Assembly (NCBI GenBank): GCA_002780005.1
Contig: PEWV01000022.1
Coordinates: forward strand, 1-45,817
Source: Candidatus Aquitaenariimonas noxiae
GTDB lineage: Bacteria > Omnitrophota > Gorgyraeia > Aquitaenariimonadales > Aquitaenariimonadaceae
Direction of reading: 5' to 3'
DNA: 45,817 nucleotides
Within the stretch, counting starts at the first letter, position 1, and each line of letters starts with the position of its first letter. The notes beneath the pieces were generated by a model that was not told where the DNA came from, did no database searches, and saw nothing but the letters and a program-made list of their open reading frames with translations. Positions 42,474 to 44,527 of this stretch are shown piece after piece. Made by a program: the position numbers and the translations under genes.

Positions 42474-43448
42474 ATGGCTTTGGAACTCTTAAAAGAAAGA
42501 TGGTCAAGCGCGATAAATGTCCTTAAGGTCGGCGCGGTAAAAGAGGAAGGCGGAACGCGCGCTTCAGCAATTACCGTTGGAGGCCAGACAACATTGCCTT
42601 TCCTGCTTGACGAAGGGGGAATGCCGCATAGGCCCGTTGTAGCGATGGAGATATTTGACGTTGCCCCGCTCGAGTGGCCGGTCTCCTTACTGGAACCATT
42701 CGGCGACGCGGTTAAAGATCCTGTAAAATGGGCAAAAAAATGTATAAATGAGTTTAAAGCCGACCTTATTTGCCTTACCCTTAAAGGGACTCACCCGGAG
42801 GCTGAAAACATATCAGCCGATAAAGCGGTTGAGTTAGTTAAAAATATGCTTAAAGAAATATCAACGCCGCTAATAATAATTGGTTCGGGAGACAAGGAAA
42901 AAGATAACGACGTCCTTGCCAGATGCAGCCAGGCAACAAAAGGCGAAAATTGCTTATTCGGACTGGCTGCGCAGGACAATTTTAAGACATTGGTGGCTTC
43001 GTGCATGGCAGATGACCATTGCATCATAGCCGATTCCCCGATAGATATAAATATCGCTAAGCAGGTTAATATTTTAATAACAGATATGGGTTTTAAACCA
43101 GAAAAAATAGCCATGCATCCCAGCACGGCGGCATTAGGCTATGGCATGGAATACGTCTACTCCATTATGGAGCGTTCAAGGCTTGCCGCGTTTGTCGGCG
43201 ACAAAATGCTCGCCATGCCGTTTATTATTTTTGTCGGACAGGAAGCCTGGAAGGTAAAAGAGGCAGCGGCAAATGTTGCGGACGAGCCCGGCTGGGGCGA
43301 CGAACGCATGCGGGGCCCTCTTTGGGAAGCGGCAACAGCGGTAGCCATGCTGCACGCCGGCGCAGACATCCTTGTTATGCGCCATCCGGAAGCAGTTGCG
43401 ACTGTGAAAAGATCTATTGATAGTATGATGAAAGGAAATAATGATTGA
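42474..43448 (+). CDS. acsD: Corrinoid iron-sulfur protein small subunit
   Basis: The 324-residue small CFeSP subunit, a TIM barrel that pairs with AcsC and helps bind the corrinoid. MEIFDVAPLEWP near residue 60 and AMHPSTAALGYGMEYVYSIMER near 205-225 are typical. AGGAGGC precedes the ATG. The TGA stop (43446-43448) lies inside the left inverted end of a 208-bp element. The protein end looks normal, so the insertion may have replaced only a few codons. Confidence 0.95.
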   Translation: MALELLKERWSSAINVLKVGAVKEEGGTRASAITVGGQTTLPFLLDEGGMPHRPVVAMEIFDVAPLEWPVSLLEPFGDAVKDPVKWAKKCINEFKADLICLTLKGTHPEAENISADKAVELVKNMLKEISTPLIIIGSGDKEKDNDVLARCSQATKGENCLFGLAAQDNFKTLVASCMADDHCIIADSPIDINIAKQVNILITDMGFKPEKIAMHPSTAALGYGMEYVYSIMERSRLAAFVGDKMLAMPFIIFVGQEAWKVKEAAANVADEPGWGDERMRGPLWEAATAVAMLHAGADILVMRHPEAVATVKRSIDSMMKGNND

Positions 43449-43652
43449 TTACCTATCCTGGACTCAAAATTTTTCCTGCCTATATAAATTTATCACGTGC
43501 AGGAACGTCCTTCGCTTCGGCAAAAATCAGGGGCAGAAATAACTCACCCCACACCAACAGGTGTGGGGTTCGAACAAATTTCAGCCCTTTTATAAACCGA
43601 TTTTTACCTTGCTCAGGACTAAAATTTTGAAATGTCCAATCTGGGTAATCAA
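43445..43652. mobile_element. 208-bp MITE-like element with inverted ends
   Basis: Perfect 9-bp ends TTGATTACC (43445-43453) and GGTAATCAA (43644-43652) extend into imperfect arms of about 45 bp (TGGAC, then CAAAATTTT on both). Further matching blocks run inward (AAAAATC, GGGC, GAAAT). The centre is a perfect 9-bp hairpin, CCCCACACC (43547-43555) and GGTGTGGGG (43560-43568), with a 4-base loop. The left arm holds an extra hairpin CCTGC/GCAGG. No gene is inside. It fills most of the 290-base gap between acsD and acsE and supplies the acsD stop codon. Confidence 0.68.
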
Positions 43653-43669
43653 GTCATATATGGGAAACT

Positions 43670-43715
43670 AAGCGGGCGTCATCCCACCTTTGGCGGAATT
43701 ACAGGACCCGCATCA
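43670..43715. repeat. REP-like imperfect palindrome upstream of acsE
   Basis: From AGCGGGCGTCATCC to GGACCCGC the sequence is imperfectly self-complementary around CCACCTTTGGCGG. The GTCATCCC and GCGGAAT pieces recall REP palindromes of many bacteria. It could fold in the leader of acsE. Other copies are not seen in this window. Confidence 0.45.
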
Positions 43716-43738
43716 TTTGGTAATAGAAGGAGAACGAT

Positions 43739-44527
43739 ATGCTAGTAATAGGCGAACTTATAAATGGCATGTACCAAAACGTTGAGCAGGCAATAAAAAC
43801 TAAAAACCGCTCGATAATTCATAAGTTAGCAAAAGAACAGCTTGAAGCCGGGGCAGACATGCTCGATATTAATGCGGGACCTCACGGCGCCGATCCGAAA
43901 GAAACTATGAGGTGGCTTATTGAAACTATCCGCGAGGTAACGCCTGCTCCCCTGGCGATAGACAGCACAAAACTCGATGTTGTAGAATTGGGATTAAAAC
44001 TTGCAGGCGAAGGCTCTATGATAAACTCCACAAAAGCCGACGATGAAAAATTGGATATATACGTTCCTCTCGCAAAAAAGTATAAAGCAAAACTCATAGG
44101 GCTTACGATGGATAAAAAAGGCGTTCCGCGAGATAAAAACGTAAAGTGCGAGTTGGCAGCTAAGATTTTAGCCAAATGCATGGAAATGGACTTGCCCCTG
44201 GAAGACGTGTATATAGACCCGATAGTCCTGCCTGTAAACGTTGCCCAGGCCCAGTGCGCCGAGCTTCTAGATGTTTTGCGGGAATTCAAACTCATAAGCG
44301 ACCCACCGCCGCAAACAGTTGTCGGCTTGAGCAATGTGTCGCAGGGAACAAAGCAGAGGTCGCTTATAAATCGCACCTATTTGGTTATGGCTGTCGCTAG
44401 CGGTCTTTCCGGCGCCATTGTTGATCCGCTTGATAAAGAGCTAATGGACGCCATGATAACGGCAGAGCTTTTATTGAATAAAAATATATATTGCGATTCG
44501 TATATAGATGCATATAGAAAGAGATAG
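43739..44527 (+). CDS. acsE: 5-methyltetrahydrofolate:corrinoid iron-sulfur protein methyltransferase
   Basis: Transfers the methyl group from methyl-THF to cobalt(I) of the CFeSP. The 262 residues form a pterin-binding TIM barrel: LVIGELINGMYQNV, GADMLDINAGPHG, LAIDSTKLDVV and MINSTK line the folate site. The asparagine in VVGLSNVSQG matches the one that assists methyl transfer. An AAGGAGAA site precedes the ATG. It is the last of the Wood-Ljungdahl genes, followed by panB after 32 bases. Confidence 0.95.
   Translation: MLVIGELINGMYQNVEQAIKTKNRSIIHKLAKEQLEAGADMLDINAGPHGADPKETMRWLIETIREVTPAPLAIDSTKLDVVELGLKLAGEGSMINSTKADDEKLDIYVPLAKKYKAKLIGLTMDKKGVPRDKNVKCELAAKILAKCMEMDLPLEDVYIDPIVLPVNVAQAQCAELLDVLREFKLISDPPPQTVVGLSNVSQGTKQRSLINRTYLVMAVASGLSGAIVDPLDKELMDAMITAELLLNKNIYCDSYIDAYRKR

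Follow-up and report, generated by a model that had tools for sequence, protein, structure and literature searches.

A probable mobile hairpin element between acsD and acsE and its relatives across a class of Candidatus Omnitrophota

The acsD-acsE spacer and its hairpin

The window analysed here comprises the 45,817 nucleotides of contig PEWV01000022.1 from Candidatus Aquitaenariimonas noxiae. Towards its end, acsD (42474-43448, plus strand) is followed by acsE (43739-44527, plus strand), names proposed in an earlier sequence-only reading that hold at the Pfam level, where the products fall into the CdhD and Pterin_bind families, respectively. Between the two genes lies a whole-length imperfect palindrome of 208 bp (43445-43652, no strand assigned) and then, 5' of acsE, the remaining spacer (43653-43738), in which a Shine-Dalgarno-like AGAAGGAG can be read on the plus strand at 43725-43732. 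The palindrome starts with TTGATTACC (43445-43453) and finishes with GGTAATCAA (43644-43652), the perfect 9-bp inverted ends that the earlier reading had described; both can be extended outwards by four bases, ATGA (43441-43444) on the left and TCAT (43654-43657) on the right, the latter past a one-base bulge, G. As also described, no target-site duplication is visible at this copy, and the acsD stop codon (TGA, 43446-43448) falls inside the left end. The AcsD C-terminus here reads ...MMKGNND, while those of relatives end at LMK or a few residues beyond. Therefore, the arrival of the element appears to have swapped only the final codons of acsD, in agreement with the proposal that it had altered the end of the gene.

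The long imperfect arms of the element are borne out by its RNA fold, at -79 kcal/mol against -40.2 +/- 4.2 for shuffled sequences (z -9.3), none of the 200 shuffles being as low. Read along the plus strand, the left arm contains a small hairpin of 29 bp, CCTGC...GCAGG (43475-43503), a private insertion that the other copies lack, followed by AACG (43504-43507), identified in alignments as the remnant of a conserved left-arm bulge motif, TTAACG, adjoining a CC/GG helix. The central perfect hairpin of the earlier reading occupies the apex (43546-43569, ACCCCACACC-AACA-GGTGTGGGGT), and its sequence varies between families with compensation. It stands on a conserved internal loop, with AACTC on the 5' side (43541-43545) and TCGAACA on the 3' side (43570-43576; CTCGGACA in other families). 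The conserved asymmetric bulge CCCTTTTATAAACCG (43585-43599), further along the right arm, provides the best sequence tag of the whole family (CCTTTTAKAAACCG).

Copies, distribution and conserved architecture

The search for further copies in the genome, recommended by the sequence-only reading, was carried out on a source assembly of 1.93 Mb in 81 contigs, 97% complete. By DNA search, four further diverged copies were found (76-86% identity over partial length), and a covariance model, R1, built from ten copies, raised the number in this genome to about ten. Using this model, whose E-values are rough, matches were obtained in 20 of the 147 genomes of the class at E<=0.01. In a phylum sample of 384 genomes, 12 had matches at E<=1e-6, all of them belonging to the class of the source genome. 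The strong carrier genomes span at least eight families of this class within Candidatus Omnitrophota. Weak matches (under ~40 bits) occur in several genomes and were not taken as strong evidence, as they are possibly other hairpins. The core tag CCTTTTAKAAACCGATTT is accompanied by the full surrounding architecture only in Candidatus Omnitrophota records. Its matches outside Omnitrophota in the genome collection have flanks devoid of this architecture and were put down to chance; carriage by phages was likewise discarded, since the matches of the 18-mer tag on viral contigs, as far as they were read, had no element in their flanks.

Across the family, elements range from ~180 to 330 bp. The copies of the source genome have a common inner core and ends that differ from copy to copy while remaining complementary within each of them, with TTGATTACC/GGTAATCAA at acsD-acsE and pairs such as TTGCCTACCC/GGGCAGGCAA and TTGATCGCCC/GGGCAATCAA elsewhere. 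Extra small hairpins are inserted in several copies; one subfamily (L099, L101-L103) shares an insertion in the right arm, and the copies of genome G000 that carry one common inserted hairpin are evidence of recent amplification. Another recurring subfamily is found in G057 and the related G212. The G057 copies, with 21 terminal-repeat sites, are near-identical and bounded by 22-bp ends (AAACCTAAGCCTACRGTTAYGG), which likewise points to recent amplification. The metagenome-assembled genomes of the carriers are fragmented, and copies frequently lie at contig ends, as expected for repeats.

In several G000 copies (L005, L100, L102 and L103), the TTTTAT^AAACC bulge is interrupted at one and the same position by a 23-bp palindrome, CCCTCGACTTCGCTCGGGACAGG, or a close variant of it. 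In G057 (L187, L177, L188), hairpin elements belonging to several families lie one inside another, among them a larger one with the sequence AAATTTTCTCCACCCAC...GGGTGGAGAAAATTT, and in G019 two copies of the element stand ~70 bp apart in opposite orientations (L111:4006-4471).

From base to tip, the architecture starts with the variable terminal repeat and a loop zone, whose left side is often CTCGCTC and whose right side is often TCGCTCGC. These are continued by the helix AAAATTT, the left-hand bulge TTAAC, a helix similar to GCCTC and the pairing of AAAAATCGG with CCGATTTTT. Further inward, the right-hand bulge TTTTAKAAA is followed by a helix of freely varying sequence, the internal loop AACTC / TCGRACA and the apical hairpin. 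Among 27 copies, 88.4% of the cells are paired; the proportion falls to 67.1% in shuffles and does not exceed 48.3% in controls with one side slid. Changes on both sides were observed in 42 of the 49 pairs. The distribution of these changes depends on the distance between copies: sister copies of one genome, with more than 90% identity, differ mostly on one side, whereas between genera the changes are mostly two-sided. This pattern fits selection on the fold in copies that are still moving, followed by drift once they have landed, and speaks against a functional role where the copies have landed. It also disfavours arm-to-arm copying (quasi-palindrome correction) as the main cause of covariation, since sister copies differ mainly on one side. 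Both the class-wide extent of the family and the covariation of its structure lay beyond the view of the sequence-only reading.

Mobility, the nature of the fold and its alternatives

A comparison of the acsD-acsE junction in relatives, also recommended at the outset, was possible in 28 relatives, those where acsD and acsE were both located. Their gap has a median of 12.5 bp and is 15 bp or shorter in 16 of the 28, and the element is present at this junction in none of them (0/28). The earlier reading had set against mobility the case of a single copy with the region conserved as an acsE leader, and both parts of that case fail. In two genomes, G061 (L142) and G001 (L145), the spacers reach 884 and 869 bp and contain an apparent cation-efflux-like gene, judged by eye.

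Presence and absence at orthologous sites can also be followed at the end of another gene, read by eye as UvrA from its C-terminal sequence, where genome G210 carries a copy (L243). The terminal repeat of this copy supplies a new stop (AAGCCATAA), a TAA, to the gene. The copy is missing in the congeners G201 (flanking gene 95% identical), G074 (92%), G178, G139, G017, G111 and G234; G095 has the left end of the element in common with G210. Beside this element there is a different hairpin repeat of ~160 bp (L243:1701-1866), present in dozens of copies in the genomes of genus g18, which sometimes occupies the same gene end in place of the element.

The family thus combines short, non-coding sequences and terminal inverted repeats with dispersed copies that are present or absent at orthologous sites, as in MITEs. 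Between co-directional genes, 12 copies run with and 11 against the direction of the genes (the ORFs being chosen mechanically). A clean empty site with base-exact and unambiguous boundaries was not found among these comparisons, and no target-site duplication is consistent across copies, whose ends differ between genomes. TA is present at both outer ends in five copies (L013, L015, L039, L250 and L254, from G050, G096 and G152), and not elsewhere. In addition, the flanks of several copies are complementary to each other above the level of shuffled pairs (mean 3.95 vs 1.10; 0 of 5000 permutations). This complementarity may reflect insertion into small hairpins or merely longer terminal repeats, and part of it may be repeat sequence beyond the boundaries that were set.

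A fold kept as RNA is expected to tolerate G-U pairs and not A-C mismatches. In the element, the GU:AC counts are 26:23, compared with 80:11 in the RNase P RNA of 17 genomes of the same class, mostly carriers (Fisher p 9e-6, a value to be read with the non-independence of cells from related copies, and an alignment fitted to the plus strand, in mind). The scarcity of G-U pairs therefore suggests that the fold matters as DNA. The two strands are not equivalent, as most copies have a slightly better fold on the minus strand, 28 of 31 with RNA parameters (20/23 in a smaller set) and 23/23 with DNA parameters. Together, these data are evidence, not proof, that the structure is constrained as DNA with one strand preferred.

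Two readings would place the function of the hairpin in RNA. The sequence-only reading had left the choice between a non-autonomous transposable element and a structured RNA; the first part of this proposal stands, while the second is disfavoured by the few G-U pairs and the random orientation of the copies. A cis-acting mRNA element (an acsE leader, an attenuator, a terminator or a stabilising hairpin) would suit a location between two genes of one operon and an apical hairpin resembling a weak terminator on the minus strand, but its absence from acsD-acsE in all the relatives compared, and the occurrence of the other copies in either orientation next to unrelated genes, make it highly improbable, and an acsE leader or riboswitch was rejected on the same junctions together with the random orientation. 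For the copy at 43445-43652 itself, no sign of regulation of acsE was seen, and its hairpin in the transcript could influence mRNA decay. It is also improbable, if less so, that the family represents the multiplied gene of a structured trans-acting non-coding RNA transcribed from the minus strand. Such an RNA would account for the strong covariation around conserved internal loops, the better RNA fold of the minus strand and the tandem G-A-like motifs in its loops; the near absence of G-U pairs in comparison with RNase P RNA, the patchy presence, the random orientation and a promoter signal not above chance speak against it. Neither does the element match any bacterial family in Rfam, the miRNA families matched by L117 being long-hairpin artefacts far below their cut-offs. 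Therefore, the many copies, their absence at the junction of relatives and their insertion in either orientation indicate a non-autonomous mobile element rather than an acsE leader, and the acsD-acsE hairpin is very probably one resident copy of a family of such DNA elements spread through the class.

Two narrower explanations specify the enzyme that would move this mobile DNA family, for which three partner protein families were examined (RVT_1, DDE_3 and Y1_Tnp), none of them yielding an identifiable transposase for the element. Movement based on a reverse transcriptase was rejected, as RVT_1 is absent from the source genome. It is possible, albeit doubtful, that the element is REPIN-like and moved by a RAYT or an IS200/IS605-type Y1 (HUH) transposase that takes single-stranded DNA in its folded form as substrate. 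The hairpin extends over the whole length with compensatory changes, no consistent target-site duplication is seen, the strands are asymmetric and Y1_Tnp genes occur in 11 of 12 carrier genomes; moreover, the left flank of the G057 copies is often ATCC while the right flank is variable, a pattern that would suit a Y1 enzyme. Against this, Y1_Tnp is about equally common in genomes without the element (19/23), no copy lies within ~3 kb of any of 35 Y1_Tnp genes, which led us to reject RAYT adjacency, and the ends of the carriers' elements differ, with no common GTAG or CGTC tag of a conserved REP. In the class as a whole, Y1 (IS200/RAYT-like) transposase genes are near-ubiquitous, in 30 of 35 genomes and with up to 11 per genome. 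We consider it rather unlikely that the family consists of classical MITEs derived from a DDE insertion sequence, whether an IS630/Tc1-mariner-like one with a TA target or a member of some other DDE family. Terminal inverted repeats and the TA flanks of G050, G096 and G152 would suit a DDE enzyme, but the IS630-type DDE_3 domain was found in none of the 15 carrier genomes, and on this basis an IS630/Tc1-mariner origin was discarded. Among the 21 terminal-repeat sites of G057, no autonomous partner with the same ends was recovered, in carrier genomes that are fragmented.

Relation to known repeats and a possible mode of movement

Among described repeats, REPINs and ERIC-type MITEs come closest to the element. 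REPINs are REP doublets forming hairpins, for which compensatory changes in the stem have been reported (PMC3116915). Like them, the element is small, dispersed, extragenic and non-coding, the whole of it forming one long hairpin. In contrast, REPINs have highly conserved REP 16-mers at their ends and a freer spacer, with REPs in the immediate vicinity of a RAYT, whereas the ends of the element vary, its internal loops are conserved across the families of the class and no Y1 gene is nearby. With ERIC, Correia and QMITE2 elements, the last of which lie mainly 3' of genes (PMC10969869), it shares its short length, inverted ends, mostly intergenic location and multiple copies. These MITEs are recognised by sequence similarity, in contrast to the element, in which the stems are mostly replaced between carriers while the fold and the loops are kept; moreover, unlike in this type, a TA duplication is not established here. 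The integron attC sites, where extrahelical bases and unpaired spacers set the choice of strand (PMC2727003), offer a third comparison, as imperfect palindromes with little sequence conservation in which structure prevails over sequence. Nevertheless, the copies of the element are solitary and dispersed rather than arranged in a cassette array, and the core boxes RYYYAAC/GTTRRRY of attC, including the R'/R'' GTTRRRY core, are absent from its ends as read by eye. The bcr1-type repeats of Bacillus cereus are also mobile repeats with a conserved secondary structure, although they belong to a different phylum and are likened to the element by description only. Accordingly, we file the element as a hairpin MITE outside the REPIN, IS630-MITE and attC families, and all its copies together as a family of small mobile elements of Omnitrophota that had not been filed before.

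The retention of the fold while most letters change suggests that the moving enzyme reads the fold itself. We infer that a protein supplied in trans would recognise the fixed bulges and loops of the folded DNA, whether this is extruded or in single-stranded form, and would copy or move the hairpin as a whole, in many cases placing it right where a gene ends. There, with the stop that the terminal repeat brings in frame (TGA for acsD, TAA for the presumed uvrA), the host gene would be shortened or lengthened by only a few C-terminal codons. Once landed, copies would drift by mutations in one arm at a time and by small hairpin insertions such as that of the acsD-acsE copy. A bolder form of this proposal, that these elements are a class-wide mobile DNA lineage identified by the shape of its folded single-stranded DNA, with bulges and loops that stay fixed on stems that are freely replaced, and served by a structure-specific recombinase distinct from both RAYTs and integron integrases, is speculative and, in our estimation, unlikely.

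Small bacterial repeats have mostly been described within a single species or genus and are detected by their sequence, while here a structural profile unites elements that are largely overlooked by sequence searches and come from at least eight families of an uncultured class. The comparison of G-U counts with an RNA control from the same class offers a simple means of discriminating between a DNA fold and an RNA fold. Should the fold prove to be the substrate, this family would supply a binding target with which to fish for the enzyme. For the host, the acsD copy illustrates that such an element can enter the end of a core gene of the carbon-fixation operon and, as it carries a stop codon of its own, do little harm.
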